NCBI RefSeq assembly: GCF_024679095.1
Contig: NC_066529.1
Coordinates: forward strand, 2,677,094 to 2,741,093
From: Eriocheir sinensis
Taxonomy: Eukaryota > Arthropoda > Malacostraca > Decapoda > Varunidae
Reading direction: 5' to 3'
Length of the DNA stretch: 64,000 nucleotides
The notes beneath the pieces were generated by a model that worked only from the letters and a program-made list of their open reading frames with translations, searched no databases and had not been told where the DNA came from. Both the position numbers and the translations under genes were made by a program. Of the stretch, positions 15,327-43,929 are shown one piece after another. The first letter of the stretch is position 1; every line of letters begins with the position of its first letter.

Positions 15327-18300
15327 ATGCGCGGCGGCGCCTCTGCCTGGGCGGCAGTGGTGCTCGCTGCCTGCAGCATTCACCTCCAACAGCCACGTCG
15401 TGAGTGTACCTGTGTGTCGCCCGCACCGCCACTCCCTAGGGACCCCTCACACCGCAGCAGCACCACCAGCCATACACCAGAAAACCCCCTTCCTCGAAAC
15501 ACACATTCCAGTAGTCACTATTTCACCTCCAGCTCCACATGCCCCTTATTTTCCTCCTCCCCTCCCCTTTGGTACACCCACAACACGATACCAACACCAC
15601 CAACCACTACCACCTTCTTCCGATGCTGAGCTCTCACTCACTCCCTTCCCTGGGACGCCTTGCTTCTTTCACCGGGAAGCGACTTGTCCTCCGTGAAGTG
15701 CCACGTTCCTCACATCTGTGTTTGATTCTCCTTGTCGTGAGACAATTTCTGCCTTGCTTCCCGCTTCACCATGACTGATAGATCTTTGGTGGGCGACAGG
15801 CGGGGTCGTCGGCGTGGAAGTGCTGACCTTCCAAGAGGATCGCCTGGTCTCGGGCAGCACACAGGCGTTGTACAAGGGCAAGCTGGAGACCGCGCGGCAG
15901 CTCGGTTCTGTTACCCTCTGTGGCAGGATCTTTTTCTTCACCTTGCATTCCTGGGCCACCTTCTTCAGACTCACCAACACCAATGGTGTGAGAAGCATAC
16001 TAGAAGGAGGCGAGTATCAGTGTTGGCGAGCATCAGATTTTGGTGGATTCCCTTCTGTTTGTTTGAGTGACACTTTAGAAAATAGTTTTTCTTTTATTTA
16101 GTCTTATTTTACGCTGGGCAGCTGCAATATAAACGTTAGGAAGTCTTAGTTGGATGTCAACAAAGAAGAGTCACAAAAGCAGGAAAGTAAGCCAGGGAAA
16201 TACAGTTGTCAGGAATAACTAGGAAGAGTAACGGATTAAAAGTTAAGCCAGAAGCAGCCATCTCCGAAGCTATTTGGAGCACCCAAATATGTAGTGCAGC
16301 CAGGAGCCTTCAGTGTTTGTTAGGATCAGGATCTGGGAACAGCTGAATGCCAAGAGCAGGCAGGAGCAATCAGGGGTCAGAGAAAACAACGAGTCAACCA
16401 GGTGTCAACAGAGATTTTTCCTTGTCCATCAGATGTCTGGGTGGAGCGCGTGAGGGCCGTCATAGCTCAAAGCTGGAACTTCCAAATTCTCGAAAAGAAA
16501 CTTTGGGTGTTCAGGTGGGCGTTGATATGATTGTTTTCCTGCCACTCAGACAATACTATTCCCAATGGCTCTAAACATTACTTCACGTCCTTGGAATGAA
16601 TTTAAGCTTGACAATTGATTGTGTATATCATCACTAATTTTCTTTTTTTTTCTAGCATATCGATAAATACATGACAGTACGTGACGCATATTGCACACTT
16701 TTCAAACCTCAGGTGGCACCACCTGTGCTTCACGTATGATCACGAGCAGCGCCTGCTGAGCAGCTACGTGGACGGCCGCCTCAACGCCCGCCACGAGATC
16801 CACATCAACAGTTACATTGCTGGGGACGGGGCGGTGCTCGGGCAGGGCGTCGACCCTCGGAGGAGCTTCAGTGGGAACCTTACTCAGGTCAACCATTCAG
16901 CTATTCTGTTAACGATGCGGGTTGTTTATTTATTAGGAATGGGACTAGCATTAAATAAAATTACATGAATAATCATTAAGTATTAATAAGTTGTATGAAA
17001 CCTGAATATTTCCTCCATCCCTGCTTCAACCTCTGCTTCAGGTCAACGTGTGGGACTACCCTCTCGCCGAGGAAGATATTCGCCGCATGGCCGAGTGTGA
17101 GGAAGACATGCAGGGTAACTATGTCTCCTGGGACGTGGGCTGGACGCTCTTAGAAATCACCAGTCATGAAGTGCCTCTCCAAGACCTTTGCAAGCGTGAC
17201 GACGACACTTACTACTTTTGGTTTCCGGCACTACCTTACGAAACCGCTCGCTTCCTGTGTCGGGCGCTGGGAACAAGCCTCCCGCCCGGCACTGATATAG
17301 AAGAAGCTATAACCTTAACGAGAATTGCCCAAAGGAAATTTCATCACACACACAGCTGCTTTTGGGATTATTGGATAGCCCCTAATGACAAAAAAGTAGA
17401 GGGTGTGTGGATGATGGATGGTATTCCTCTTCATGATAATATTGCCTGGAAGACTACTGAACCCAACGGCTTGCACTACGAAAACTGTGGCGCTTTAGCC
17501 ACTGTTGGTGTCTCTGACATCGATTGTGAAACAAATTTGAAATGTGGTGTTTGTTCCTTCAACGATCTTCAGAGGTTTGCCCTCCTAGGCACGTGCGAGT
17601 CAGAGCTGCGGAACTATTACTACACGGCGTTCCAGCGTGATGAGGAGGAGCTGGTCTTCATTGGTTACGGAGCCTACCAGATTTCGCGATTCAACGGAAC
17701 CTGGACGTTGACCGATGTTGTCAAAGACGTGATCATCGCTTACCTGGAGGAGACTGAGCCAGACTATCCAATGGGTCGACTCTGGTGGCGGCTGGAGCAA
17801 CCAGTGTGTGACCAGAGGGCCGGCGGTCGGCGGAGGATGCTGCTGTCTCCCTGCCCGCCCGGCCACTTCACTTGCGACGACGCCACCTGCATCCCGCTGC
17901 CGCAGCGCTGCGACCTCAAGTACGACTGTGGTGACAACAGCGACGAGCTGGAGTGCGAGTCGGTGTCCTTCCCGGACGGTTACCAGAGGCACCTGCCGCC
18001 CCGCCGCGGGGACTCGGAGGAGGCGGCGCTGCCCATCGTGCTGACCGTCAGCGTGGAGTCGCTGGCCGTCAAGACCATCGACATGGTGATGGAGGTGTCG
18101 TACCAGCTGATGCTCACCTGGATGGACAACCGTCTGCTGTACCAGGACCTCAAGGAGGACAGCACCCTCAATGTGCTGCCGGCGGACGTGGTGGAGCGGC
18201 TGTGGACCCCACAGGTGGGTTTCATCAATACCATCAAGAGCGAACACACCCTCATGGACGGCGACACCATCATGAAGGTGGACCGCCTCGCCGACTCCAT

Positions 18301-19746
18301 CGGCATGAAGCCCGCCACGTCCGCAGAAGGTGAGACAATAGAGTCACCACACCTATTCCTCACAGTTTATGATTTAAACGTGACTGGTCCATCCGTCACC
18401 ATTTTTACCCAGAGCAACACACTGACCTAGTTTGTAGTATAACTGGTAGTTCCTTAGTCAGTGATAACACTATAGTCTGATAACACTATTATTGTAATAA
18501 ACCTTTCCTGGTCGCAGTTGAGCTGTTCTCCGGGGTTGGCAACACGTTGACAGTAGGGAGGAAATACGGGACATCGTACATGTGTGACCTCTCTCTCTTC
18601 CTCTACCCTTTCGACGTTCAACAATGCTTTATGCACCTCAGGATCTCGTCCGCCACCAAGTTTTTCTTGCTGTTTGACCGGAACATGTCCTCCGTTAACT
18701 ATACCGGCAACCACCTTCTCGTGGAGTACGAGGTTGGTATGGGTTGAGATGCTCCATATGGTGGCAGGGCGTGGCGAAAAGGTTTTCATAAATGCGTCAT
18801 TGTGCTGTTTTATATATCTAACTCGTATCCCGCTACAACAGGTGGGTGACCTTTCCCTGGTGCACGCCGACGAGGATCAGTTCAGCGAGGTCAAGGTGAG
18901 AGTCCCGCTCACTCGGCGCGCGGGCTACGCGATTCTCAACATCTACCTGCCCACGCTGGTGCTCCTCGTCGTGAGCTACGTGACGCTCTTCATCCGGCCG
19001 GCCATCATTGACGTGAGGATGACCTCGGCCCTCACGGTGCAGCTCGTCATTGCGACACTCTACTCCCAGGTGTTCAGACGTGCACTGCATAATCTCTCAG
19101 TTGTCACTTGAACCACTCTCAAGTTCTTAAAGGTTTCTCTCCAGATAGTTGACAATGTCCAATATTTATTTTTTTGCCTTCCTTCCGGTGTTTCAGTCTG
19201 CTGCCCTCACCAGGCGAAGGGTATTCCACTCAATCTTTTCGTCTTTTTAATAAGTCTCTCAACCCACATTAAAGAAAATCTCTGAAAGCTGGAACCAACT
19301 TTTTCTTATGAGGTTTGGTTCAGTCACCTTATTAGTTAAAAGTGTCTTGCTATATTCGTCTTTGGGCTTGGACCATCAGCTGATGAGCTCCTGTTCTTTC
19401 TCAGGTGTCCGCCTCTCTGCCCAAGACTTCCTATTTCAAGATGGTCGACTTGTGGCTGATTTTCTGCATCGGCATTACCTTCCTTACTATCATCTTCCAC
19501 GTGGTGGTGGACAACGTGATGCACGGACAGTCATCTCCAGGCGGCACTAGTGTGTGGGTGAGCTCACTGGCCAAAGTTAAGCTGGGCCCGTCAGTCCCGG
19601 GAACCATGGGTGCCACTGAGGCCTCGCAGTACCTGCCTAGGCAGGGGGTACTAGGACAGCGGGTCGTTTTGGCCACGAAGGTGATGGTAGCGGCTGTCTT
19701 TTTCGTCTTCAACATTGGCTACTGGGGCTTCATACTGAGCCAGTGA
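15327..19746 (+). CDS. Chimeric pentraxin / C-type lectin / LDLa / Cys-loop ligand-gated ion channel (gene 1)
   Basis: Eight coding exons: 15327-15399, 15800-16009, 16433-16514, 16713-16887, 17042-18329, 18518-18732, 18842-19069 and 19405-19746. Joined phases close exactly (2,613 nt, 870 residues, TGA stop), and an inverted paralogue at 38-44 kb has the same exon plan. Seen, in order: hydrophobic N-terminus (about 1-22, signal peptide); pentraxin/LamG-like domain with WHHLCFTYD and VNVWDYPLAEEDI (about 25-215); CTLD with WIAPND, EGVW and EPN at 320-322 (about 229-351); a linker with GRLWWRL; LDLa, six Cys plus DCGDNSDE (451-485); Cys-loop ligand-binding domain with WxDxRL (540-545) and a 13-residue loop C632-C646 holding YPFD; four membrane segments (about 710-732, 741-760, 772-794, 848-868). 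The architecture predicts a surface receptor gating an ion pore; ligand and ion are unknown. Intron 2 has a GC donor. Domain identity is firm, function is inferred. Confidence 0.93.
16010..16011 (+). other. Non-canonical GC 5' splice site (intron 2 of gene 1)
   Basis: The exon 2 boundary reads GGAG|GCGAGT, while the paralogous site on the other strand (43,400/43,399) reads GCAG|GTGAGT. Position and phase are identical, and reading through meets a stop downstream, so a GC-AG intron is the simplest reading. GC-AG introns are a known minor class and often less efficiently spliced. Confidence 0.7.
17042..18329 (+). other. Exon 5 of gene 1: fused pentraxin end, CTLD, linker, LDLa and start of channel domain
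   Basis: A single 1,288-nt exon encodes about residues 181-609: the pentraxin C-terminus (VNVWDYPLAEEDI), the CTLD, a ~90-residue linker, the LDLa module and the first half of the neurotransmitter-gated ligand-binding domain. The first ~720 nt are AT-balanced; from about 17,760 onward third positions become strongly G/C. The equivalent 1,285-nt exon of gene 2 lies at 41,121-42,405. No intron separates the domain types here. Confidence 0.9.
18842..19746 (+). other. Pore-forming exons 7-8 of gene 1
   Basis: Exon 7 (18842-19069) ends the ligand-binding domain and holds M1 plus most of M2; exon 8 (19405-19746) holds the M2-M3 loop with the family motif LPKTSY, M3, a short ~55-residue cytoplasmic loop and M4. 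In the pore segment [18 protein letters not shown], taking R as 0', the residues are T at 6' and L at 9' (the conserved gate). The Pro-Ala-Arg motif usual just before M2 in anion channels is absent; the sequence is IDVR. Ion selectivity is therefore open. Confidence 0.85.
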
Positions 19747-20090
19747 CGGGGTGACTTCCTGGTCCACATGCAAAGACTGAGGGCGTTAGAAGGGTCACCA
19801 CAGTGTGAAAGATTGCTGCGGGGTTTGGACGAAGTTACGCAGCCACACGCACAGCATATATTCCATCACTGTTTATCTGGCGACACCTGCCTACCATACC
19901 TAGTATAGGCTGCACTGTAAGATAATGATTTCCTCCTTAATAGCACATCGTGACTACCTACCGTGTTGATGTATCTATGTTATAATGGATAGCCTCTGGT
20001 TGTATTATAATTGTATTGCGTACGTAAGACAATCCCTACAGAGTGGAGCTGAATCTGTGATTTCCTTAACTTCTGAAAACTAGTCAAGAA

Positions 20091-20096
20091 AATAAA
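20091..20096 (+). promoter_or_regulatory. Polyadenylation signal AATAAA for gene 1
   Basis: The first AATAAA after the stop codon, about 345 bp downstream. It implies a short 3'UTR. Confidence 0.55.
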
Positions 20097-20099
20097 TTT

Positions 20100-20991
<892 letters not shown>

Positions 20992-21149
20992 GTAGACAAA
21001 CATAGACAGAAACCGACTGACAAAGTAGACAAACAGAAGGACAGAAACCGACTGACAAAGATACACACAAACTGACGGAAAAGAAGAAAGAGAGAACAGA
21101 CAGCATAACAACTTCCTATTGACAGAGAAAGACGCAAAAAACTAATTAT

Positions 21150-21640
21150 CCACATATGTAAGGAGGCCAACCCACCAGACAGACAATCAGACATACATAC
21201 AGACAGACAGACAGACAGAGGTAGCCAGCCCACCAGACGTCGAGGTATTGATGAAGGCTGTCTAATATAGTTCTTTCCCTGTAGCCACAAGGATTAATGG
21301 TGTTCTGTCCACTCCTTTAAGACAGACAGACAGGCAGCCAGACAGACAGCCGTAAGGTACTGATGAAGGCTGTCTGATGTTACTCTTTCCCTCCGACCAC
21401 AAGGGCTGATGGTACTCACGGCCACTCCTTCAAGACAGACAGACAACCAGCCGTAAGGTACTGATGAAGGCTGTCTGATGTTACTCTTTCCCACTGACCA
21501 CAAGGGCTGATGGTACTCACGGCCACTCCTTCAAGACAGGCAGACAGACAACCAGCCCTCTAGGTACTGATGAAGGCTGTCTGATGTTACTCTTTCCCAC
21601 TGACCACAAGGGCTGATAGTGCTCACGGACACTCCTTCAG
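21150..21640. repeat. ~105-bp tandem repeat, four copies
   Basis: TGATGAAGGCTGTCTGATGT recurs near 21,248, 21,361, 21,462 and 21,568, with CACTCCTT(C)AAGACAGACAGA in each unit. The variable (ACAG)n part explains the spacing range of 101-113 bp. Confidence 0.85.
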
Positions 21641-22800
21641 CCGGGTCACCTTCCCACACGACTTCGAGCACCTGGACTGACGGAGACTGATGCCCAAGAC
21701 CTCGAGCAGAGCGAAAGCAGAACTCAGAGGAAGGAGAACATGTACTGGCTGACCTTTTTTTTTTTTTTTTTTTCTTTTACTCCGAAGAGGTGTTAATTAT
21801 TTGTCATGTCTCTTCCTCCTCCTCGTCCTCCATCTCCTCCTCCTCCTCCTCCTCCTCCTCCTCCTCCTCCTCCTCCTCGTCCTCCTCGTCCTCCTTCTCC
21901 TTTTAACTTTATCTCGTTGTAATTCTCCTTCTTTTCTTTCTTAATATTTGTATCTTCTTTTGTTCTTCTATTTTTTTTTCTTTTTTTTATTCGTCTCCCG
22001 TTCTTCTTCTTCTTTATTGCCTGTTATATTTCCTCTACTTCATTTGTTTCTTCTTCTTCTTCCTCCTCCTCTTTTTCCTCTCCTCCTCCTCTTCATCATC
22101 ATCATCATCATCATCCTCATCCTCATCCAGAAAACGGGGAGAAATAGTAGTAGTAACATATAAGAATAAACAGAGCAAGAAGAAGAAGAAAAACAAAAAG
22201 AAATCGAAGAAGACGAATAGGAAGATGACACCCCGCATAGTTTAGTGTTCACGTCACCTGTCCCGTTGTCTCCATCTTTGGGCGACAGGTAGAAGCCCCC
22301 CCCCAACCCCCACCCCACACACACACACACTCCCAACACACATCTCTCTCTCCTGTAGATGGCCCGCCCCCTATCCGGCACCACCTGTCCTTCTGATGAT
22401 TGTGTGTAAAGTAGTAGTAGTAGTAGTAGTAGTAGTTGTAGTAGTAGTAGTAGTAGTAGAAGTAGTGGTTTTAGAATGCAAAAGGTACACTCCATATTGC
22501 TCCTTCATGCGTTTGAGTGCCTTCTTACGTAACACACACACACACACACACACACATCAACAGTCTCAGGGTTAAACTAGTGTCTGTGTGCGAGCAAACA
22601 AGCCTTTAATCCTGTCATTTATCCTCCACACAAGTATCTATTTTTCTTTCCATATTTCTTCCACAAGAGGAGCTAGAACGTGACCTGCGTGGAGTCTTGA
22701 GCATTCCAGTGCCTCTGCCCACATGTCCTTCCCTTCCATCCCATCCCTTCCCATCCCATCCCATCCCGTCCCATTCCCTTCTCTTTCCTACCAGACGCTC
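21641..22800. other. Gene-free pyrimidine-rich stretch
   Basis: Contains a (TCC)n array at about 21,822-21,900, further TTC/TCC/ATC runs to about 22,130, a (GTA)n array at about 22,411-22,460 and (CA)n at about 22,532-22,555. No exon recognised. Confidence 0.55.
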
Positions 22801-23237
22801 TCCTTATGTGGTGCAGCTGCGGCGACCTTCGGGGCAAGCTTAGGAACAGAGGCCGTCCGCTTATACGTGCCCTCCTTGAATCCTATATAAGAATAATAAG
22901 GGAAAGGCAGGTGAAGAGGAGGGAAGATGCGAGCCCTGACGCCGAAGACTTGGATGAAGACGAAAGACAGGAAAGGAAAGTAAAATGCGGACAAAAACAA
23001 AAAACTAGGAAAATATGTGATAGTTTTAGAGGATTAGTAATAAGAGAAGGGATAAAGCGAACCGCAACGTAAAAGGAGAATTAGATAAACATGAAAGGTA
23101 GTTAGGGAAGAAAAAGTAAAGACTGACAAAAACAAGAAGGTAAAAATGGGGATTAGATAGATGGGTTAGATAGATAGATAGATTAGATAGGTCAGAGGAT
23201 TAGTAATAAGAGGAGGGATAGTAATGCGGGCCACAGC
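22801..23237. other. Unassigned stretch
   Basis: An 88-codon frame at 22,806-23,072 (+) is charged (Arg/Lys/Glu/Asp-rich), has no recognisable motif and runs into purine-rich sequence with a short GATA tract near 23,170. I do not call it a gene. Confidence 0.4.
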
Positions 23238-23610
23238 ACCGAAGAAGAAGAAGAAGAAGAAGAAGAAGAAGAAGAAGAAGAAGAAAAGCGAAAAGGACAG
23301 AAAAACGAGAAGGTTGAAAGAAATTATGGAAGGTATTGAAAAGGGAAAAGAAATAAGAAGGAAAAAGAAAAAACGTTGGAAGGTATTGAACAGGAATAAG
23401 AAATGAAAAGCTAGAATGAAAATGTTGGAAAAAGAAATGAGAAGGTAAAAAAAATGTTGGAAGGTATTGAACAGGAAAAAAAAATGAGAAGATAGAAAAA
23501 ATGTTGGAAAAAGAAATGAGAAGGTAAAAAAAATGTTTGAAGGTATTGAACAGGAAAAGGAAATGAGAAGCTAGAAAAAAATGTTGAAAGGTATTGAACA
23601 CACACACACA
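23238..23610. repeat. (GAA)n array and short tandem repeats
   Basis: (GAA)n at about 23,239-23,285 is followed by recurring GGAAGGTATTGAACAGGAA and AGAAATGAGAAGGTA motifs to about 23,600. Confidence 0.75.
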
Positions 23611-24055
23611 AACAAAACAAAACAAAAATTAACAATACCAGAGAAGACTTCAACTCCCCAAACACAAACACACACACACACACACACACAAAAAAAAAAA
23701 AGCAAAATGAGCCCCCCCAAAAATGAAGGTGTACTTACTCCAAGCCCTCAACAAACAAGAAGGGCAAAAAATAAATCCTGGCGAGCTGTTGTGCATTTTT
23801 AAAAGGGATAATTGGAAAGCGAGGCAAGGACGAGTGTTGAGGATGCTAGGTCGGAAGAACAGACTGAGACGATTTAGAGAGGCGCTCTGGGCAAGGGTAA
23901 GGGAGAGGCGGGAGGGACTTAGATGGCGTTTAGTGAGAAGGAAAAAAAAATAGAGAGAAGCTGTTTACATTACCTCTGCACTGCATCCTGTTGTCCTCGT
24001 TCTCCTGCGATTCATTGTCTTCACCGTTCTTTTTTTTCCATCTCATTTTCTCCGG
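23611..24055. other. Gene-free stretch
   Basis: (CA)n near 23,668-23,690, oligo-A and oligo-C runs, then purine-rich sequence. Nothing gene-like. Confidence 0.45.
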
Positions 24056-24059
24056 TGCA

Positions 24060-24830
24060 GCAAGTATCTTTATCTGAGGTTACTCCGGGAAAAGACAGAC
24101 ACCCGTTTAACAGTAGAAAGGAGAGACAGACACACTCGTTTATTCCATCCTTTTCTTACTCAATTTTTCACACATCCACAATGGTATACTATTCTATCTG
24201 AGGTTCTTTTGACAGCAGGAAGGACAGACAGACAAGCCTTTTTTTCATTCTTCTCTCGCCCAGTTTCACACATCTACTGTACTGTACAATCTGAGGATCA
24301 TTTGATAACACGAAGGACAGACAGCCACCCCTTATTCCATTCTTCTCTTACCCATTTTCATACATCCACTATTCTATATTGAAGTTCTTTTGATAGCAGG
24401 AAGGACAGACAGACAAGCCTTTTTTCCATTCTTCTCTCGCCCAGTTTCACACATCCACTGTACTGTACAATCTGAGGTTCATTTGATAGCAGGAAGCACA
24501 GACAGCCACCCCTTATTCCATTCTTCTCTTACCCATTTTCACACATCCACTGTTCTATATTGAAGTTCTTTTGATAGCAGGAAGGACAGACAGACAAGCC
24601 TTTTTTCCATCCTGCTCTTACTCAATTTTTCACATCCACTGTATTGTACAATCTGAGGTTCTCTTGACAGCGGAAATGACAGACCCGTTTATTCCATCCT
24701 TTTCTTATCCACTTTCACATATCCATATCCACTATATTATACTGAAGTTCATTTGACAGCAGCATAGAAGAAAAACAGACACCTCCTTATTCTCTCCTTT
24801 TCTAACCCAATTTCACACATCCAAATTCAC
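24060..24830. repeat. ~90-bp tandem repeat with a 180-bp dimer pattern
   Basis: About eight copies of a unit with TTTTGATAGCAGGAAGGACA and a CCATTCTTCTC...CACACATCCACT part. Copies alternate between CAATCTGAGG and TATTGAAG starts and between two CAGACAG... variants, so similar copies lie about 180 bp apart (24,289/24,468 and 24,378/24,558). Confidence 0.8.
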
Positions 24831-24865
24831 TTTACTAAGGTTGGTATTACAAGACATTCATTTCC

Positions 24866-25068
24866 CACATCAACTATTTCTGTAGGTCAAAGAGGAGGTC
24901 ATTCGGGTTCTAACGAGTGTTTCTTTCGGTTGACAGTACAGAGGAAGGATCAGACTACCACCAGGGTCATAAAACTACCCCTGAAAATGCCCATAACTCC
25001 TACGAAAGCATTGCCAAATATGTGAACTTGGGCGGGAAAATGTTTTAAAATACGACCCTAACAGTCCT
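24866..25068. mobile_element. Solo arm of a dispersed fold-back repeat
   Basis: Sequence from ATCAACTATTTCT through AATACGACCCTA closely matches 55,384-55,586 and, inverted, 55,019-55,205. Only one arm is present here. It encodes nothing recognisable and is probably a MITE-like element. Confidence 0.7.
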
Positions 25069-25069
25069 C

Positions 25070-26699
25070 CATATTCACTCCCATCTTTAATACTGAAAGC
25101 TACATGTGTACAGCCTCCTTTCTGTTGTCCGTTCCTCCACATAACTCTCTCTCTTTTGTAACTCCTCCACACCGCTACATATGTATTCTCGCCCATGGCC
25201 ACACAGACCCATATCTATCCATATCTGTAACTAGGGGAGCTACACTTGTCCAAATGTTATTACTAGGGTGTTGTTGTTTTTTTCACCTACATCCAACATC
25301 TTCACCCACAGCCCATCGATATCCACATCCCTGTTCACTCCTGATTTCTCACTTTGCCATGCAGTTAACTTACACCATTTACAGGAAGAGCTACGGACGC
25401 TTTTTAATGTTACTGCTTGAATCTTTCACACCCACACTTATTAGAATCAACATACAGTTCCGCACCCATACCAAAGCAACGTTATACTCTCTCTATTGAC
25501 AACTTTATATTATGGATTTGATGCCTTCTCCACACATATCCAACACGTATCGAACAGGTATCCACACCCATCAATATCTACCCCTTATCACAGACCCTCC
25601 CTTCAACACCTAACCACATTCATACACCGCCAGTCACCCTCACCATCACCACCACCACATCCACACCCATCCATACTCACCCCCATCACCCCCTCCCCCT
25701 CCCCTCATCACAATCACCAGCCCATCCATCCACTCCCGGATATGCATCGACTCCACTTTATGTAACACTTCGAGCCATCCAAGTGACCTTCAACCCCAGC
25801 TACCTCCCCCCCCCCCCCGCAACACACACACACACCTGTACACAAACATGCGGCATCTTCTTAACTCGTAAACTACTCCTACACGTGTGGCACTCCTACC
25901 TCTATTCTCCTCCTCATCCTCGTCCTTTTCTTCCTGTTTGTCGTACCTCCGCCCATACAGACCCATAAGCACACACCACGTACACATAAACCACATCACA
26001 TACATAAAGATCTACCACCACCGCCACCACCTCCACCACCACAACTACAACAACAACAAATAGATAAAAGACAACAGTATCACCCGTCACTCCCTCACCA
26101 TCCCTCTGTGACACCTGCTCCCACTAACTTCTCCATCACAGTCCAGCACGAACAAACACAACCAATTCGTATAATCCTGAGTGTCAATTTTTCATGCCCT
26201 CCATAAACGTTTTGATGCTTAACAGAGAGAAAACATGAAGAACGGTGGGTAGTTAGTGGTGTGTAAAGATGAGATATCCAGGCAGTAGGTTACCAAGGAG
26301 TTTGCAATGTCACACACCTACACCTGCTTCTTAGATGAGTTTTAGGGAAAGAGGCAAAAATGTTTAAAAGAGTCGAGTGTTTTCTCCATGAGTTTTCTTT
26401 TGGAGACTAACGTGCTGCATATATATATATTTTTTTTTAGTTTTGTTTATCAGCTTGTTTTGCTTATCAGATGTTGTTTTGTACTGTCCTTGGTCTGTCT
26501 CCTTACCGTTAATAATGTAACACTAATAAATTGAAGACATTATCCTTTGACAAGACTTCCCTTACCTCGATAAAAAATATAAAAAATCAATTATTGCGTC
26601 TTTTTTTTTTTCATCATGCCACGAAACTTCATTTAAAGACGTCATTATATTCTGCCACAAGTACACTTCAAAAAAAAGTCCCCTATTTTATTTTATTTT
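25070..26699. other. Gene-free stretch, CA/CCT-rich
   Basis: Pyrimidine- and CCA/CAC-rich (25,560-26,060) and then AT-rich sequence. No exon boundaries or protein motifs recognised. Confidence 0.5.

Positions 26700-32678: not shown

Positions 32679-32735
<57 letters not shown>
32433..32735. repeat. (CA)n and (GT)n microsatellites around a unique segment
   Basis: (CA)n at about 32,433-32,477 and (GT)n at about 32,681-32,735, inverted relative to each other across about 200 bp. Confidence 0.9.
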
Positions 32736-32736
<1 letters not shown>

Positions 32737-32819
32737 ATTCACCATGGTCTGATCATGCGCCGGACTCACGATCGCCAGCCAGTACTCTCCCAGAATGAGT
32801 TTGGAGTTCACGTGACGGA

Positions 32820-33012: not shown

Positions 33013-33475
33013 ACAAAGATCCGCGTGTGTGTGTGTGTGTGTGAGGGGAGGAGCCTTGCCTGAAAGTGAAGGTGCGGCCGGAGATCCAAGAGAAGCGCGC
33101 GTTGCCTTGGACCAGTTCCTACACATCCTCGCCGCCCCAGGCAAGGCCAACCACTTTGTCCAGCATTGCTTCGTCCGCTTCCCTCTTCTAAATAGATCAC
33201 AACAATACATCACAAGCAAACCTCATAAGACATACATTTTTTTATCAACTATCCATCGTCTTTCTCGTACTTGTGACTGTGATATTTAGCGTTGAAGAAA
33301 AGTCATGTAACACCCCCAATGAGTCGCCTCCGTGAGCGATATCAAGAGGGCCACGACCGCTCTGCAAGGAAGGTCCCCTGAATGATCCAACTGAAGAGGA
33401 TTCCCGCTGCGAAGAACATCCAGTGCCCATCTTCAGGGTGGAGCACGCATGTATGTACGAACGCATGTCGCCGGG
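33013..33475. other. Upstream region of the cuticle gene
   Basis: Includes a short (GT)n at about 33,024-33,042, then unique sequence leading to the cuticle gene promoter. No further gene. Confidence 0.5.
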
Positions 33476-33504
33476 TATATAAGGGGCAAGTAGACCAGCG
33501 TCAG
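33476..33504 (+). promoter_or_regulatory. Core promoter of the cuticle gene: TATA box and initiator
   Basis: TATATAAG at 33,476-33,483 is followed 25 bp later (first base to first base) by GTCAGC with TCAG at 33,501, the arthropod initiator pattern. This predicts a ~30-nt 5'UTR before the ATG at 33,531. Spacing and motif fit an RNA polymerase II TATA/Inr promoter, common for cuticle genes. Confidence 0.75.
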
Positions 33505-33530
33505 CCAGAATCCCGCCAACCGCCGCAGAC

Positions 33531-33584
33531 ATGGGATCCTGGACTAGCTTAGTGAGTACTGCATCCACACGTGTCTTCGTGCCT

Positions 33585-33652
<68 letters not shown>

Positions 33653-36185
33653 ACATATCATATACATCAATATTCTTTTAATCGTTATGTTCTTACATAC
33701 GTAAATGTTTACGCACAATTTTCACAGTTCATAGTTTTAGCTAATGCGTATTTCCCCAAGCAGAAGGTAAATTGTAACACTTCCACCTCTCTTCCAGGCG
33801 GTGTTGGCCCTGGCGGTGGTTAGCGCGCTAAGTTTTCCTGATCCTGATTCTGACTACAAAATTCCGACCGTGGGAGGAGGACATCGGGCCCAGTACTACG
33901 TCCTGCACTCTGACGGCACCTACAAGTATGGCTACGACACCGCCGACGGAATCTTCGAGCAGGCTATGGCGAAGACACCCGGACGTCTGAGCGGAGAGTT
34001 CGGATACAAAGACCCGACAGGCACCGACGTTAAGCTGGAGTATACGGCTGATGAGCGAGGCTTCATCGCAACAGGCGCCCATCTTCCGGTGGCTCCTGAG
34101 GTAACGCTTCCTGAAGCTGTGGCCCCGTCAGTGTACAAAGCAGCTGACCCGGCCCCTCTGCCTGCTGCTGACCCGGTCCCAGCTTTCGAAGATGTGATTG
34201 CGTTGAGAAGCGGCACTGGTGCGCCTGCTGCCCCGTCCACTTATGAAGTGGCTGACGTAATAAGCAGTTTTGGAGATGATGGGAGCTACAGCTTTTCGTA
34301 CGGCACTTCCGGCAGTTCAAGGAGTGAGTCTGGGGACTCTGACAACGCAGTAAGCGGAAAATATTCCTACGTGACGGATGATGGAGTCGACCACAAGATC
34401 GAGTACGTGGCAGGGGCAGCCACAGGCTATATTGCCAGAGGAGATTCCCTACCCGTGGGTCCACCTGTTCCCGGAGCAGAATCAGGTATTCCCACAGGAC
34501 ACATTGTGCCCGTCCTTAGCGAGGAAGAAGCAAACGCCCTCGCTGGAGCCAGGTACACAGCAGCAGACCCCGACACTCCTGCCCTAACTTACAGCGCAGC
34601 TTCCTCTCCCAGGGACGCCTCCTACTCGTTCAGTTACGCCGCCGATGATAGCTCTCGCTCCGAAAGCGCCGATGCCAACCTCAACATCAAGGGAAGCTAC
34701 AGCTTCCTGCCGCCTGGCGAGGGTCAGAGACTTATTGTTAACTACATTGCAGGATCTGAGACTGGATTTGTGGCAGAAGGTGACCACCTTCCTAAAGTTT
34801 CAGATGATTTTGGCTCGAAACTAACTGGTGTTGCTGAACCTGTCTACCCCGTTCTGACTAAGGCAGCTCCTCCATCTCATTCGGCCTCCGCAGCCCTTGC
34901 AGCCCCTGTAGCTTCCTCTGAGCCAGCAGGATCACCTGTCATCTCGTACAGTGCTCCCTCTGACGCCGCATACTCCTTCAGCTACGATGCGGGCGACAGT
35001 TCTCGATCCGAAAGTGCAGACTCAAACCTTAACATCAAGGGAACCTATAGCTTTGTGCCTCCAGGTGAAAGTCATCGGTACAGCGTGAACTACGTGGCAG
35101 GATCTGGCACAGGCTTTGTAGCCGAGGGAGACCATCTCCCAGTGGCACCAGAGGCCACGTTTGATTCAAAACTTTCTGGGGCTTATGAAACTGCTGCACC
35201 CGTGCATGATACACCGTCAGTGTACAAAGCAGCTGACCCGGCCCCTCTCCCTGCTGCTGACCCGGTCCCAGCTTTCGAAGATGTGATTGCGTTGAGAAGC
35301 GGCACTGGTGCGCCTGCTGCCCCGTCCACTTATGAAGTGGCTGACGTAATAAGCAGTTTTGGAGATGATGGGAGCTACAGCTTTTCGTACGGCACTTCCG
35401 GCAGTTCAAGGAGTGAGTCTGGGGACTCTGACAACGCAGTAAGCGGAAAATATTCCTACGTGACGGATGATGGAGTCGACCACAAGATCGAGTACGTGGC
35501 AGGGGCAGCCACAGGCTATATTGCCAGAGGAGATTCCCTACCCGTGGGTCCACCTGTTCCCGGAGCAGAATCAGGTATTCCCACAGGACACATTGTGCCC
35601 GTCCTTAGCGAGGAAGAAGCAAACGCCCTCGCTGGAGCCAGGTACACAGCAGCAGACCCCGACACTCCTGCCCTAACTTACAGCGCAGCTTCCTCTCCCA
35701 GGGACGCCTCCTACTCGTTCAGTTACGCCGCCGATGATAGCTCTCGCTCCGAAAGCGCCGATGCCAACCTCAACATCAAGGGAAGCTACAGCTTCCTGCC
35801 GCCTGGCGAGGGTCAGAGACTTATTGTTAACTACATTGCAGGATCTGAGACTGGATTTGTGGCAGAAGGTGACCACCTTCCTAAAGTTTCAGACGATTTT
35901 GGCTCGAAACTTGATGTGGTTCCTGCCCCTGTCTCTCCTGTCCTGACCAAGGCAGCTCCTGTTGCTGCTCCGGTCCCCACTCTCCTGGATGAAACTCAGT
36001 TGAGGAGTGGCACTGGTGCCTCTGAAGCAGCTGTCGTTCCCGCTATCATTGAAGCCGTCGAAGTCAGAGACAGCTATCAGCCTATTGGTCACTCGACCCA
36101 CGTGGTTGGTGATGTCTTGCTTCATCAGTACGGCTCGGCGAGTGCCGGCAAGTATGGTTACGTCTTCACTGCTCTTGACCACTGA
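33531..36185 (+). CDS. Large multi-module RR cuticle protein (802 residues)
   Basis: Two exons: 33531-33551 (MGSWTSL) and 33798-36185, phase 0, GTGAGT donor and CTTCCAG acceptor; TGA stop. A short signal-peptide exon split from the rest is typical of arthropod cuticle genes. Residues 1-19 form a signal peptide ending VSALS. Six Rebers-Riddiford-like modules follow: the first (about 46-104) fits the chitin-binding consensus (GEFGYKDPTGTDVKLEY, YTADERGF, HLPVAPE). Modules 2-6 (about 167-225, 280-340, 396-455, 530-588, 643-703) keep aromatic residues (YSFSY, GFVAEGDHLP) but replace the A-x-E of the consensus with AG-x2-TG. Modules 2-3 and 5-6 are identical copies. Linkers are Ala/Pro/Val-rich. 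It is expected to be secreted by epidermis and to bind chitin in the exoskeleton; the binding of modules 2-6 is uncertain. Confidence 0.93.
33592..33649. repeat. (CA)n microsatellite in cuticle-gene intron
   Basis: About 58 bp of CA within the 246-bp intron, starting 40 bp after the donor. A possible polymorphic marker linked to the gene. Confidence 0.95.
34125..34822 (+). repeat. 698-bp internal block, copy 1, of the cuticle gene
   Basis: Identical to 35,214-35,911 except for two synonymous changes (CTG/CTC Leu near 34,160; GAT/GAC Asp near 34,805). The offset is 1,089 bp, a multiple of three, so the frame is kept. It encodes residues 117-349, covering RR modules 2 and 3. Confidence 0.97.
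35214..35911 (+). repeat. 698-bp internal block, copy 2, of the cuticle gene
   Basis: Encodes residues 480-712, identical to residues 117-349. Module 4 and its linkers (about 350-479) separate the copies. Near-identity at synonymous sites points to a recent duplication, gene conversion, or an assembly effect. Confidence 0.97.
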
Positions 36186-36348
36186 AGTGAATTTAGCCGT
36201 ACAAAGAGCAGAGAAAAGACAGGACGGACATTCTTCAAGCTGAATTTCTGACTACGACCTGATACGTTTACTATACAAGGGTAACCGGTGCTGATTTTTT
36301 TGTACTAACAGTTGGGAAAATGTAATGTGAAAAAAGCATTTTGACGAA

Positions 36349-36354
36349 AATAAA
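36349..36354 (+). promoter_or_regulatory. Polyadenylation signal AATAAA of the cuticle gene
   Basis: About 165 bp after the stop codon, followed by an A-rich stretch and ATTCTTTATTGG. Confidence 0.65.
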
Positions 36355-36386
36355 AAAAATACATTCTTTATTGGAATTTATTTCAT

Positions 36387-36518
<132 letters not shown>

Positions 36519-36856
36519 AGATGAACGCTCTCTGATGAGCTGTAGTCCATCCAAAATATCAGTAGTTGCAATTAATATAGTAAATCATTGTTATCAGAAA
36601 AAAATCTCAGGAGACGTTTAATAACAAAAAAAAACAAGTATTATATTCTTTGAGTTCGTTCAAGAACATTCTAATTGTTTTACTTTGAATGACACTTGCT
36701 TATGAAGATTAATATGCATGGGTAACCTCAGTGTAAAGGAAAAAAGGATAAAACACGAACATAATGTACTTAATGTTGACCAGAAATGAAAAAGAAAACA
36801 CTTGTCCGGTGCCTGAAGGTGCTGAAGGAGGCAATCCAGACACACTTGTTCAGACC

Positions 36857-37051
36857 ACCGTTGCCAGATCATCGTACTCAGAGCCATGGTATTTACCGGC
36901 TTCTGACGCACAGCTATTGCCAAGTAGCATCAGGAATTAACTATTTTAACGATAATTATAAGTGAATTTCGTTATTGTGGTCCAGGAGACAGTTTTGGGG
37001 TCGGAAGTCGGTAATTATAGGAGGCTGAGTACGACAATCTGGCACCGTTGG
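36857..37051. mobile_element. MITE-like element, family A, copy 1
   Basis: Ends form imperfect inverted repeats: ACCGTTGCCAGAT(C)ATCGTACTCAG at the left and CTGAGTACGACAATCTGGCAC at the right, about 195 bp apart. No coding capacity. It is most similar to copy 4 at 59,462-59,654, including the internal TTTAACGATAA and GGGTCGGAA parts. Confidence 0.8.
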
Positions 37052-37190
37052 AACTTCAGACTCTTGGGTGTCGGCTGTTTAAGTTGCCATGATCGTGTGA
37101 AGCTGCGTGCCGGCGTTCATGTTTCGCCGGCAACACTTCTCTTCATACACGTCAGCAGTTCCAGGTGGAGTCAGCGAGAAGAAAAGTAGG

Positions 37191-38092
37191 TCAGGATTAT
37201 AAGGAGTCAGTACAGTAGGTCAGGATTCTTAGGAGTCAGTACAGTAGGTCAGGATTATAAGGAGTCAGTACTAATTCTAAGGAGTCAGTACTAATTCTCA
37301 GGAGTCAGTACTAATTCTCAGGAGTCAGTACTAATTCTCAGGAGTCAGTACTAATTCTCAGGAGTCAGTACTAATTCTCAGGAGTCAGTACTAATTCTCA
37401 GGAGTCAGTACTAATTCTCAGGAGTCAGTACTAATTCTAAGGAGTCAGTACCAATTCTCAGGAGTCAGTACTAATTCTCAGGAGTCAGTACTAATTCTCA
37501 GGAGTCAGTACTAATTCTAAGGAGTCAGTACCAATTCTCAGGAGTCAGTACTAATTCTCAGGAGTCAGTACTAATTCTAAGGAGTCAGTACTAATTCTCA
37601 GGAGTCAGTAGTAATTCTCAGGAGTCAGTACCAATTCTAAGGAGTCAGTACTAATTCTCAGGAGTCAGTAGTAATTCTCAGGAGTCAGTACTAATTCTCA
37701 GGAGTCAGTACTAATTCTCAGGAGTCAGTACTAATTCTAAGGAGTCAGTACTAATTCTCAGGAGTCAGTACTAATTCTCAGGAGTCAGTACTAATTCTCA
37801 GGAGTCAGTACTAATTCTCAGGAGTCAGTACTAATTCTCAGGAGTCAGTACTAATTCTAAGGAGTCAGTACTAATTCTAAGGAGTCAGTACTAATTCTAA
37901 GGAGTCAGTACTAATTCTCAGGAGTCAGTACTAATTCTCAGGAGTCAGTACTAATTCTCAGGAGTCAGTACTAATTCTCAGGAGTCAGTACTAATTCTCA
38001 GGAGTCAGTACTAATTCTCAGGAGTCAGTACTAATTCTCAGGAGTCAGTACTAATTCTAAGGAGTCGGTACTAATTCTAAGGAGTCCGTAAT
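37191..38092. repeat. 20-bp minisatellite, about 42 copies
   Basis: After a few longer starter units (GTCAGGATTATAAGGAGTCA) the unit GGAGTCAGTACTAATTCTCA repeats with exactly 20-bp period from about 37,260 to 38,090 with no indel. Variants are mainly TCTCA/TCTAA, with rarer CTAATT/CCAATT/GTAATT. Length 20 rules out coding. It ends about 47 bp past the stop codon of receptor gene 2, so it probably lies in its 3'UTR or immediate flank. Confidence 0.97.
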
Positions 38093-38139
38093 TCCCCTGT
38101 CTTAGGTCCTCGTGACGCTCCTCCATATCCAGGCCGTCA

Positions 38140-41100
38140 CTAGCCCAGTATGTAGCCCCAGTAGATGATATTAAAGAGGAAGAACACAGCAGGCACCAGT
38201 ACCTTTGTGGCCCACACCACCCGCTGGCTCAGTAGCTCCCTTCCCCCCTGACCGTGCATGCCTCCCTTAGACTTCCAGCTCCCAGAGTCAAATTTTCCGT
38301 TGCCCTTGGAGCTCACCCACACCTTGACTCCTCCTGGGTGTTCGTTACCGTAGAGAATGTTGTCCACCACCACGTGAAAGATGATGACGAGGAAAGTGAT
38401 GCCAATACAGAATATCAGCCACACGTCCACCATCTTAAAGTAGGAAGTCTTGGGCAGGGAGGCCGACACCTGAAGGAGAGCAAAAGGTCAGTCTTCAGGA
38501 CCAGGCTGTAGGGCGCCAGGGAATGTAGGTGCACGCTTTACATCTCTTCCATACTTATTTCTTTAACTAAGTGGAGGATTTATAGAACATTTTACGATTT
38601 AGGTTTGGGGTTAATATGATGATTACGGTAGAAGTCGAAATGTACATGGTATAGATACTTATCTGTAGTTTCAGATTTACAGTAGAAGTGTGCAGCAACT
38701 GTGCATTTTGTTCATCAGAAAATTACTCTCAGCATAAGATTATCGGGAGTTGTGTCTTTCATCACAGAATTGCTCATTTTTATTCATTTAGAACCTTACA
38801 TCCGCAAACAATGGGTGACAGTTTTGAGCTCGTCACACACTACTGATTCATGCTCACGTAGCAAAGATGGACCAGTATCACACTACTGAGACTCGTGGAC
38901 TCACTAAAGCCCCGTTCACACTGCGCCGACTCCGGGCCACGACAACCCTGCGACTCGGAGTATGCAAGGTCTTGGGTGTGAGATGTTGATGTGAAAGGGT
39001 CGCACAAGGTCGGAAAGTGGTCTATAAGCGATCGCCGGATGCTGATTCGGCTCAGTGTAAAGGGGGCCTAAAAGTCGCTGTGTGTGTTGTGGCCCAGAGC
39101 CCGCACAGCAAAGATGGATCGTTATCGTGACTACAAATAAAGATAAACACCTTAACATGGTACCTGCGGGGATCATGTTTCTTAAAGGTCCCTCTAAGCG
39201 AGAAAAATGAGAAAAAAAATCATCACTCACGCAAACTGGTTCATAATATATATCAACGCTTTTGTGATCAGTTTATGCATCATCTATTTTGGGGGGTTTA
39301 TATCATGGCGAAAATTTGGCCCGTCGCTGCTACACGTAAAGCCACAAATTTGGCCCGTCGCTGCTACACGGTAAAGCCACAAATTTGACCCGTCGCTGCT
39401 ACACGGTAAAGCCACAAATTTGGCCCGTCGCTGCTACACGGTAAAGCCACAAATTTGGCCCGTCGCTGCTACACGGTAAAGCCACAAATTTGGCCCGTCA
39501 CTGCTATACGGTAAAGCCACAAATTTGGCCCGTCGCTGCTACACGGTAAAGCCACAAATTTGGCCCGTCGCTGCTACACGGTAAAGCCACAAATTTGGCC
39601 CGTCGCTGCTACACGGTAAAGCCACAAATTTGGCCCGTCGCTGCTACACGGTAAAGCCACAAATTTGGCCCGTCGCTGCTACACGGTAAGCCACAAATTT
39701 GGCCCGTCGCTGCTACGGTAAAGCCACAAATTTGGTCCGTCGCTGCTACACGGTAAAGCCACAAATTTGGCCCGTCGCTGCTACACGGTAAAGCCACAAA
39801 TTTGGTCCGTCGCTGCTACACGGTAAAGCCACAAATTTGGCCCGTCGCTGCTACACGGTAAAGCCACAAATTTGGCCCGTCGCTGCTACACGGTAAAGCC
39901 ACAAATTTGGCCCGTCACTGCTACACGGTAAAGCCACAAATTTGGCCCGTCGCAGCTACCGGGTTAAGGAGGCACACCACCGCCACACACCTGCGAGAAG
40001 AGTGTCGCGATGACGAGCTGCACCGTGAGGGCTGACATCATCCTCACGTCGAAGATGGAGGGCCTGAAGAAGAGCGTCACGTAGCTCACGACGAGAAGCA
40101 CCAATGTGGGCAGGTAGATGTTGAGAATCGCGTAGCCGTAGCGCCGAGTGAGCGGGACTCTCACCTTGACTCCGCTGAACAGACCCTCGTCCCCGTGCAC
40201 CAGATCCAGAGTCTCCACCTGCCACGAAGAGACGCCTGATGCACCACCAATAGTTACATCAGATTAAATGTATACTTATTATTTTGTTGTTGTTGTTGTT
40301 TACGTTCGGTCCATAGCGCCGGTACCTAAAAGTTATTCTTTACATGTTTTTTTTTTATAATTTCTTGTGAGTATAAATTATGCAGCAAGATGTAAAGATA
40401 TGGTTCCAGGCCTGGGGTGGTGTGGCTTTCAATCGGATGTTTTTTTTGTTTTTTTAATCTTTACTAACCCGGGTTCCGAAGTATCTTTGTTTCTCACTTT
40501 GGTCGTGTTTAGGTGGCAAGTTGTCTTAAAACAATTTGATTTTTCGTCGCCTCTTTACTGTTTCGATCAGACTTTCGAATCGTTCCTGAATCCTCCCGCA
40601 GTTTGCTGGCCCTCTCGCTCTGCACACAAGGTGACCACAACTTCATCTCATCAAACTACCTTCACCACCACACGGAGCAATTGTAACACACCTCATACTC
40701 CACCAAAAGGCGGTTTGCAGAGTTGTTGACGACGGACTTGTCGGTATCGAACAGCAGAAAGAACTTGGTGGCTGACGAGATCCTGAGGTGCATGAAGCAC
40801 TCCTGCACGTCGAAGGGGTAGAGCGAGAGGTCCAGGTCACACATGTAGACGGTGCCGTACTTCCTCCTCACCGTCAGTGTGTTGTTGTCGCCGGAGAAAA
40901 GCTCCACTGTGGGCAAAGGAAGTTCATCATGTAATTAATCATATATAATTAATCATGAAACTAAAGCTTCTATAATAAAAGTTTGTTAATAAGATGATTA
41001 TGTGGTTTAGCGAATTATAACACTGGTGGTGTAGATGAATGTGTCCAAGGCTGCTGCATGGACTATTTGACAAACCTTCATTCCCATCGTACCATGCACG

Positions 41101-42874
41101 CGACGGGGCCCAGAACTCACCTTCTGCGGGCGTGGCGGGCTTCATGCCGATGGAGTCGGCGAGGCGGTCCACCTGCATGATGGTGTCGCCGTCCATGAGG
41201 GTGTGTTCGCTCTTGATGGTGTTGATAAAGCCCACCTGTGGGGTCCACAGCTGCTCCACCACGTCCGCCGGCAGCACATTGAGGGTGCTGTCCTTCTTGA
41301 GGTCCTGGTACAGCAGACGGCTGTCCATCCAGGTGAGCATCAGCTGGTACGACACCTCCATCACCATGTCGAGGGTCCTGACGGCCAGCGACTCCACGCT
41401 GACGGTCAGCACGATGGGCAGCGCCGCCTCCTTCGAGTCCCCGCGGCGGGGCGGCAGGTGCTTCTGGTAACCGCTCGGGAAGGACACCGACTCGCACTCC
41501 AGCTCGTCGCTGTTGTCGCCACAGTCATACTTGAGGTCGCAGCGCTGCAGCAGCGGGATGCAGGTGGCGTCGTCGCAAGTGAAGTGGCCGGGCGGGCAGG
41601 GAGACAGCAGAATCCTCCGCCGGCCGCCGGCCTTCTGGTCACACACTGGTTGCTCCAGCCGCCACCAGAGTCGACCCATTGGGAAATCTGACTCAGTCTC
41701 TTCCAGGTAAGCGATGGTCATGTTTTTGACTACGTTGATATATGTCCAGGTTTTGTTGAGCCGCTTGATGTGGTAGGCGCCGTAACCCATGAAAATCAAC
41801 TCGTCGCTCTCCTGGAAGGCCGTGAAGTAAACATTTCGTACCTCCAACTCGCAGGTGCCCAGTAAAGAAAATCTTCCGGGTTCAGTGAAGGCACACGCGA
41901 CGCAGTTTAGATTCGTTTGACAGTCAACATCAGCGACACCGTAGGGATAAAACACGGCACAGTTCTCGTACTTCAAACCATTGGGTTCCTTTGGCCCCCA
42001 CTTAACCTCGTCATTGACCACCATATCGTCGATCATCCAAACTCCCTCCAGCTTCAGATCGTTGGGTTCTATCCAGATGTCATCACGACAGTCGTGGCCT
42101 TTAGGGAACTTTTCTTCCGCCTGTCCATATATGGTATTTATCTCCTCCTGGCTTTTGCCGAAAGGGAGCCTTGTGCCCAGCGCCCGGCACAAGTATGTCG
42201 CAACCTTGTAAGTAACTGAAGGGAACCAAAAGTAATATGTACCATTTTCACGTTTGCAGAGATCGGCGAGAGGCACCTCATGGCTGGTGACCTCCTGGAG
42301 CGTCCAGCCCACGTCCCAGGAGACATAGCTGCCTTGCATGTCTTCCTGACAACTGGCGATGCGGCGGATCTCGTCCTCGGCGAGAGCCCGATCCCACACG
42401 TTGACCTGAAGCAGAGGATGACACAAGGGGGTTAAGCTTTACATACAAAGTATGTTGTTCATCTAAATTCCTACAAAAACATCAACAAGACGGTTTGCCT
42501 TCATATTCCCTTTTTCTTCAAAAATAACAGAGCGTTCCTCGGTCAACCTGCGTCAGATCGCCGCTGAGGCTCCTCGTAGGCTCGACGCCTTGCCCGAGCC
42601 GAGCCCCGTTCCCGGACACAGGCTTGTCGATCTCATAGTTTTGGTGGTTGTTGAGGCGGCCGTCCACGTAGGTGCTTATTTGGTATTTTTGATGGTCGTA
42701 GGTGAAGCACAGGTGGTGCCACCTACGAACGATACAGGTAGGAAGTTTTCATGACGTAATTATGTTAATAGAAAGATGTTTTTATCTTGAAAATCGCTTA
42801 GACGAGATCCGTAAGAATCAGCTAATGAAACATAGGGGTGTGGTAACCCTTCCCATGACACTGACCCCACTGTG

Positions 42875-42917
<43 letters not shown>

Positions 42918-43929
42918 GCACTGTTACAACTCAATAAAAGTGAATGGCGCTCACCTGAACACCCAGAGGTTCTTCTTGAGGATCTGAAAGTTCCAATTCC
43001 TGGAGATGACGGGCCTCACGCGCTCCACCCACACGTCTGTCGGCGAGGCAGGGTTGGTTACTTAAGCGCACAACTTTACTGATTCCTCAATTTATCACCG
43101 CCCTTGCCGTTATTCCTGGCGGCATTCTGACATTTCTTTGTTTTCTTGTTTACACTTGACTTCTTTAAACTTTTGTCTATCTCTGTGGATATTCCTGCCT
43201 GCCGCCTTACTTCCAGATTGATGCCTTACTGTTTATTATTCCCGCTCCTACTCAGATGTCAGACTCGCTGATCATTTTTCCTCATTGGTTTGCTATAACA
43301 GCAATATCACTCATATATCTTTGCTCCAACTTGTTGCGAGCCTCTGCGCCATAGTCAACTCCATTTTAGGTTTCCATTAATCAAGGTTGCACCACTCACC
43401 TGCCTCCAAAACGCCCTTAAGCTTTTGTTCGTTCAAGAGGGCGAAGAAGGTGGCCCAGCCGTGGAGGGTGAACAGGAAGAACCTGCCGCAGAGTGAGAGG
43501 GACGAGAGCTTCTCTGCAGGGTCCAGCGTGCCCTTGTAGAACGCCACTGTCTTGCTGGTAGCCACGCGGTCCTCCTGAAACCGCAGCACCTCAACGCCCG
43601 CCGCCCCGCCTGTCAGAAATCTGTCATCAGGGTGTGGGGAACGTGACATCTTTAGATGGCAGGGGGATATTGTGAGCTGATGATGTTTGTGAAAAGGGAA
43701 GCATAGTGCTGGGGCGGCGCTGCTGGTCAACGTGTGGGGAGTGTTAATAGGTTCTACTGGAGGAAGGAGTGTGTGGAGCAGGCTGTGTTGGGGTGTTGAA
43801 CAGGTTGGGGGTTGCACCCATAGCAAATATGGGCGACAAAGCACATAGATACTAACGACGAGACACCTGGAGGTACACATAGCAGACCACGAGCACCACC
43901 GCCGCCCAGGTCGAGGCGCCGCCACGCAT
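38140..43929 (-). CDS. Chimeric pentraxin / C-type lectin / LDLa / Cys-loop ligand-gated ion channel (gene 2)
   Basis: Eight exons in - strand order: 43857-43929, 43400-43609, 42955-43036, 42548-42722, 41121-42405, 40692-40906, 39991-40218 and 38140-38469. The sum is 2,598 nt, 865 residues, TAG stop; exons 1-4, 6 and 7 equal the lengths in gene 1 and all phases agree. All donors are GT. Domains match gene 1: signal peptide ([12 protein letters not shown]...), pentraxin/LamG-like domain, CTLD with WIEPND, EGVW and EPN, a linker with GRLWWRL, LDLa with DCGDNSDE, ligand-binding domain with WxDxRL, Cys-loop of 13 residues with YPFD, M1-M4. By hand count the CTLD is 61/119 identical to gene 1, the LDLa plus early channel domain 161/174, and exon 6 57/72. 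Convergent to gene 1 with the cuticle gene between. Function and ligand are inferred only. Confidence 0.93.
38908..39110. mobile_element. MITE-like element, family B, copy 1 (in intron 7 of gene 2)
   Basis: Left part GCCCCGTTCACACTGCGCC and CGGGCCACGACAACCC; right part CGATCGCCGGATGCTGA and GTGTAAAGGGGGCC. The same blocks make up 63,492-63,712. No coding capacity. Confidence 0.7.
39314..39960. repeat. 35-bp minisatellite, about 19 copies, in intron 7 of gene 2
   Basis: The unit contains AAATTTGGCCCGTCGCTGCT followed by ACACGGTAAAGCCAC. Most copies are identical; a few carry TTGACC, TTGGTC, CGTCACTGCT or 1-4-bp deletions. The array ends about 30 bp from the donor of exon 7 (39,991). Frames such as the 62-codon one on the - strand are artefacts. 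Confidence 0.97.
41121..42405 (-). other. Exon 5 of gene 2: fused pentraxin end, CTLD, linker, LDLa, channel domain start
   Basis: 1,285 nt, three fewer than in gene 1. The 5' half (about 41,700-42,405) is diverged from gene 1; the 3' half (about 41,121-41,695) is nearly identical at nucleotide level, synonymous sites included. In the CTLD the EPN motif is kept, while the site aligned with the usual WND reads VAD-x-D-C (VSD-x-D-C in gene 1), so classic calcium-dependent sugar binding is doubtful. Confidence 0.9.
42876..42914. repeat. (CA)n microsatellite in intron 3 of gene 2
   Basis: About 39 bp, 40 bp downstream (on the - strand) of exon 3. Confidence 0.95.

Follow-up and report, generated by a model that had tools for sequence, protein, structure and literature searches.

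A pair of predicted lectin-bearing Cys-loop channel genes in Eriocheir sinensis and their crustacean relatives

Here, we describe two convergent genes, A and B, in a window of Eriocheir sinensis DNA (the whole stretch that was analysed, 64,000 nucleotides), each of which is predicted to encode one polypeptide in which a pentraxin module, a C-type lectin, a beta-rich module and an LDLa repeat precede a complete Cys-loop channel subunit. The pair is no special case: these are two of dozens of related genomic places. We give about an even chance to a reading in which the subunits assemble as pentamers, with five lectin arms that attach to surfaces bearing glycans and make the pore more or less likely to open. 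Such a family would enable cells to respond electrically on touching a surface coated with sugars.

Genes A and B lie on opposite strands with 18.4 kb between their stop codons (Table 1). Their exon joins, predicted from splice sites and relatives, give joined frames of 870 aa for A and 865 aa for B with an identity of 71%, and the phases across the eight exons (1,1,2,0,1,0,0) are the same in both, confirming the full-length inverted pair that an earlier note on this DNA had described. The donor is GT in 13 of the 14 introns of A and B together and GC in the remaining one, and two donors are weak.

Table 1. Coordinates of the two genes, their exons and modules, and other features in the window.
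Feature	Position	Strand	Description
Gene A	15327-19746	+	start codon to stop codon
A exon 1	15327..15399	+	start codon, hydrophobic leader (signal peptide by eye), ends in phase 1
A exon 2	15800..16009	+	pentraxin N-terminal part; GC donor
A exon 3	16433..16514	+	pentraxin
A exon 4	16713..16887	+	pentraxin/Laminin_G_3 core
A exon 5	17042..18329	+	one open frame: pentraxin end, C-type lectin, beta-rich module, LDLa, first part of ligand-binding domain
A C-type lectin module	17204..17569	+	aa about 235-356; EPNG and YENC kept; WND replaced by VSD
A beta-rich module	17570-17839	+	aa 357-446, between lectin and LDLa
A LDLa repeat	17849..17956	+	aa 450-485, with calcium box
A tract common to B, conversion-like	17768..18319	+	aa 423-606 of A
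A exon 6	18518..18732	+	ligand-binding domain with Cys-loop
A exon 7	18842..19069	+	end of ligand-binding domain, M1, most of M2
A pore stretch -2' to 17'	19010..19069	+	DVRMTSALTVQLVIATLYSQ
A exon 8	19405..19746	+	M2 end, M3, short loop, M4, stop
Gene B	43929-38140	-	start codon to stop codon
B exon 1	43857..43929	-	start codon and leader
B exon 2	43400..43609	-	pentraxin
B exon 3	42955..43036	-	pentraxin
B exon 4	42548..42722	-	pentraxin/Laminin_G_3 core
B exon 5	41121..42405	-	one open frame: pentraxin end, C-type lectin, beta-rich module, LDLa, first part of ligand-binding domain
B exon 6	40692..40906	-	ligand-binding domain with Cys-loop
B exon 7	39991..40218	-	end of ligand-binding domain, M1, most of M2
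B exon 8	38140..38469	-	M2 end, M3, loop, M4, stop
Cuticle protein frame	33771-36185	+	between A and B
20-bp tandem repeat	37260-38090		about 50 bp past the stop codon of B
35-bp tandem repeat	39312-39959		within intron 7 of B
Reverse-transcriptase fragment	51579-52007	+
Exon-like frame	56981-57502	-	methyltransferase motif

Pfam places Pentaxin, Laminin_G_3, Ldl_recept_a, Neur_chan_LBD and Neur_chan_memb over cut-off in both proteins, with 48.1 bits in A and 52.8 in B for the ligand-binding domain (LBD), 31.5 and 30.9 for the membrane part and 37.0 and 37.4 for LDLa; Lectin_C is barely over cut-off in B and under it in A. The pentraxin module of both proteins has the jelly-roll fold, and the lectin has the C-type-lectin CRD fold with its four conserved cysteines. 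The LDLa repeat contains six cysteines, and its calcium-box residues (D471, D475, D481 and E482) are present in 42 of 42 aligned rows, as are the Cys-loop cysteines (C-x13-C); the membrane helices are present in the structure model. The beta-rich module of A is strongly conserved across the chimeric family and its structure is predicted with confidence; a fold search assigned no fold to it, the results being filled by lectin matches that left the module barely probed. The Pfam calls and the open frame of exon 5 bear out the claim that pattern-recognition modules and a complete Cys-loop channel share one predicted protein; the domain search proposed with that claim finds the pentraxin, LDLa, ligand-binding and membrane domains together in A and B, and Lectin_C over cut-off only in B.

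Could the lectin and channel parts be separate transcripts, misjoined by gene prediction? The joins outside exon 5 are indeed predictions, with one GC donor and two weak ones, and among the relatives P0065 and P0072 are unspliced exon-5 frames with an apparent intron at both ends. However, exon 5 alone holds the lectin together with LDLa and half of the domain for ligand binding, and these three lie in one frame at 19 of the 22 loci of this genome that were compared (A, B and L009-L028). At L010 and L011 no intron interrupts the frame from the end of the pentraxin to M4; Pfam gives LDLa, LBD and the membrane part and no Lectin_C at these two loci, where the lectin was called by alignment and the EPNG/YENC motif, as it was by motif and alignment in L012, which likewise lacks Lectin_C in the Pfam list. 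Ten of 18 paralog frames scanned with Pfam carry Lectin_C, LDLa and LBD over cut-off and seven also Pentaxin; the second membrane part (M1-M2) was located at only 14 of the 22 loci, within the DNA fetched around each. Outside this genome, 40 of 41 related proteins have LDLa and LBD, and 34 of these further include, within the same annotated protein, a Pentaxin, Laminin_G_3 or Lectin_C call. Transcript proof was sought in P0031, P0064, P0065, P0068, P0072, P0090 and P0091; several of these database relatives turned out to be frames of exon 5 that seem to run into introns, and they were therefore excluded as transcript evidence. On the single frames we reject an artefact of separate transcripts as extremely improbable.

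How large is the family? A genome search with the exon 5 frame of A as query, in which 90 of 256 candidates were scored, returned at least 87 matches that merge to at least 77 places on 51 contigs; the match count is a lower bound and could be inflated by haplotype copies. Some near-identical paralogs could be such copies, so that gene numbers are approximate. In 27 of the 87 matches one frame runs from the lectin to the ligand-binding domain, 25 times without a stop. A frame of 2160 aa from the same search proved to be an artefact of N letters. The QPD-type paralogs L016, L017, L019 and L020, on three contigs, are nearly identical and represent recent duplicates or haplotype copies.

The 41 relatives include proteins from Scylla, Portunus, Panulirus, Petrolisthes, Macrobrachium, Palaemon, Procambarus, Homarus, Halocaridina, Penaeus, Oratosquilla and Hyalella, and a channel-only profile search added a krill relative and further amphipod relatives. 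Relatives thus occur in krill, amphipods and mantis shrimp as well as in decapods. In a tree of 64 sequences A and B are sisters (support 0.953) adjoined by a Scylla protein (1.0), and the eight-member clade around them (0.896) also holds Petrolisthes, Panulirus, Procambarus and Homarus (P0011), a placement that points to a crab as the likely source of the window. The channel-only search, with the best 7,996 candidates scored, gave at least 68 proteins, namely LDLa-bearing relatives, fragments and LDLa-only proteins, and no stand-alone channel parent among them. Two proteins, P0040 and P0045, have LDLa and the ligand-binding domain without a listed lectin; since the sequence of P0040 begins inside the beta-rich module, a lectin-less ancestor does not follow from them. 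Three divergent relatives (P0058, P0060 and P0063) have lectin-like, LDLa and ligand-binding parts. The tree includes P0060 and P0063, both of which branch apart from the named malacostracans, and the architecture may be older than Malacostraca.

In the conversion-like tract A and B differ at 19 of 552 aligned sites. Third positions differ at 7 of 184 codons inside the tract compared with 292 of 681 elsewhere, and the best score in 2,000 codon shuffles was 60, compared with 305 observed. Values of dS between the two genes are 0.08 in LDLa, 0.03 in the exon-5 part of the ligand-binding domain, 1.4 in exon 6 and 2.58, which is saturated, in the lectin. The dN/dS ratio is 0.32 over the whole gene and 0.135 in the lectin module, where, at that saturated dS, the comparison of A with B shows no excess of amino-acid over silent change and hence nothing that points to positive selection. 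The simplest reading of the tract is gene conversion between these two inverted genes, with strong constraint on silent sites as a possible alternative. Conversion would keep the channel half alike while the lectins diverge, and the tract suggests that diversity would come from the lectin part, with LDLa and the channel kept alike.

What kind of pore do these subunits line? Aligned family members have Arg at 0' in 39 of 39 cases and Leu at 9' in 38 of 38, and the pore of A and B reads DVR. Position -2' is D or E in 37 of 40 rows and Q in three, and -1' is Val in 30 of 39 rows, with A before R in three of 39; by eye, the genomic paralogs have D or E at -2' in L009, L012, L013, L015 and L024, Q in L021, L022 and L027, and N in L026 and L028. 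In the bacterial channel GLIC an acidic -2' ring is reported to bring about cation selectivity, and might do so here; no such basis was found in the passages of one GLIC paper that were checked. Metazoan channels have two selectivity signatures, GE[K/R] and A[R/K], according to a published account (PMC4795631), and A and B match neither, the signature being a usual feature of such channels and not a defining one. A canonical anionic pore is rejected for A and B on the DVR sequence. A pore with neither usual metazoan signature might also belong to subunits that reach the surface without conducting, as lectin receptors or silencing subunits, but the invariant Arg and Leu indicate that the pore is maintained and selection between A and B is purifying, and we regard non-conducting subunits as very unlikely.

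The alignment to glycine receptor alpha-1 (E 2.4e-22) covers a ligand site that has changed: Met stands in place of loop D Arg, Ala and Glu take the places of loop C Tyr and Thr, and loop C has no cysteine pair. Because the Arg, Tyr and Thr residues that serve agonist binding in the glycine receptor are replaced, neurotransmitter binding by A and B seems doubtful.

The lectin arms present a mixed picture of binding sites. The calcium ligands of pentraxins such as CRP are a Glu-Gln-Asp triad, which is missing in A (GQGVD) and B (GQGVE); of the 12 genomic frames that cover this stretch, eight keep it (L016, L017, L019-L021 and L023-L025), but not A, B, L015 and L018. At the primary lectin site A and B keep EPN, Glu and Asp and hence four of five calcium ligands, and have lost the Asn and Trp of WND (VSD in A, VAD in B). 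In an alignment of 42 rows (A, B and 40 relatives), the Glu and Asn of EPN are found in 38 of the 40 rows with a residue, while the second motif has its Asp in all 40 of 40. EPN is the mannose-type and QPD the galactose-type motif, and the first lectin motif at 20 alignable genomic loci is EPN in 13, QPD in five, EPD in one and DPN in one. Carbohydrate binding by the arms is suggested by the four ligands kept in A and B and by the triad in distant paralogs. The motif and triad counts make the distant paralogs better candidates for sugar binding than A and B, which lack the triad and the WND Asn and may therefore bind sugar weakly or not at all; this counts against the lectin-arm model.

Two other readings bear on these sites. 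The lectin, pentraxin and LDLa modules could serve to anchor the channel, clustering or positioning it at synapses or on matrix, while an ordinary small ligand opens the pore through the ligand-binding domain. The best relatives of solved structure include neuronal pentraxins 1 and 2, members of a group that clusters glutamate receptors, and the lost calcium triad of A and B is what a structural module would be expected to show. However, anchoring leaves the EPN/QPD alternatives and the conserved calcium ligands over the paralogs hard to explain, and the agonist residues of the glycine receptor are missing; we consider it somewhat unlikely, though a credible contender. Alternatively, the proteins could be environmental chemoreceptors for small waterborne molecules, with arms that serve to concentrate the ligand or to bind mucus and play no part in gating or immunity. 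A large family dispersed over 51 contigs is typical of chemoreceptors, and the expansion of ligand-gated channels in the European lobster is taken as chemosensory in one study (PMC13286009), but the conserved calcium ligands of the lectin suggest that it is more than ballast, and this reading appears unlikely.

In the lectin-arm model that we favor, five subunits would assemble, as expected from the Cys-loop fold, into a channel from which five lectin arms point outward. On touching a surface that bears glycans the arms would be pulled or ordered, and this might bias gating through the junction between LDLa and the ligand-binding domain, a coupling for which DeCLIC offers a precedent. Against the model stand the Lectin_C call under cut-off in A and missing from the Pfam lists of L010, L011 and L012, the membrane part located at only 14 of 22 loci, and dN/dS values that reveal no positive selection on the lectin. 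Chemosensory cells or haemocytes are the presumed sites of use. If the arms do gate the pore, pattern recognition would be linked directly to membrane excitability, without second messengers; if not, the family is still one of animal Cys-loop receptors that carry extra domains at the N-terminus and a pore outside the two usual metazoan types. The most elaborate version, a glycan-gated, crustacean-specific expanded family with five lectin arms, a third pore type ([D/E]VR), an EPN/QPD specificity swap and a channel half kept uniform by conversion, is rather unlikely to hold in all its parts.

DeCLIC, a bacterial pentameric channel, resembles A and B in being a channel subunit with added beta-rich N-terminal domains, and its jelly-roll lobes influence gating kinetics; it differs in its bacterial origin and in having no lectin, pentraxin or LDLa (PMC9897478). 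The abstract of that paper describes such N-terminal domains as absent from eukaryotic relatives, a statement to which the crustacean chimeric family is, by sequence and predicted fold, a counterexample. Compared with glycine and GABA-A receptors, which are anionic Cys-loop receptors, A and B have about 490 extra N-terminal residues and a DVR instead of a PAR pore, and they have neither the agonist residues of those receptors nor the pair of cysteines in loop C. Unlike PTX3 and neuronal pentraxins, the pentraxin module of A and B has no calcium triad and would form the tip of a channel, and unlike collectins, mannose-binding protein and DC-SIGN, A and B have the WND Asn replaced and are not soluble or single-pass receptors. 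Chimeras of pattern-recognition and Cys-loop parts were reportedly presented as a new class by Polinski et al. in 2021 with the American lobster genome; A and B likewise join both parts in one predicted protein and may belong to that class. Of the likeness to these receptors drawn in the earlier note, the architecture holds, in A and B and in four Homarus proteins (P0011, P0018, P0020 and P0030), the first of which shares their clade, while the neurotransmitter binding is questionable for the reasons given above, and the direct gating by microbial or glycan ligands and the immune-neural setting put forward there are hypothetical. In Homarus, ligand-gated channels, pentaxins and C-type lectins are all expanded and are listed as separate families (PMC13286009); these three expansions may partly be one chimeric family. 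A full-text literature search, beyond which most subscription and CC BY-NC papers lay, found no description of these chimeras. The class itself is reportedly already known from lobster, as an uncharacterised kind; added here are the intact pair, the family size, the single-frame paralogs, the EPN/QPD variation, the DVR pore and the conversion-like tract of A and B.

Finally, several other features were noted in the window. The cuticle protein frame has six Chitin_bind_4 stretches and an internal direct duplication with an offset of 1,089 bp, its side frames at 34375 and 35464 being identical. The 35-bp tandem repeat comprises 18.6 copies and the 20-bp repeat 41.5 copies, the latter likely in the 3' untranslated region of B. 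The reverse-transcriptase fragment (RVT_1, 22.2 bits, under cut-off) is likely the remnant of a non-LTR element, and the exon-like frame with the methyltransferase motif scores 22.6 bits for MetW, barely over cut-off.
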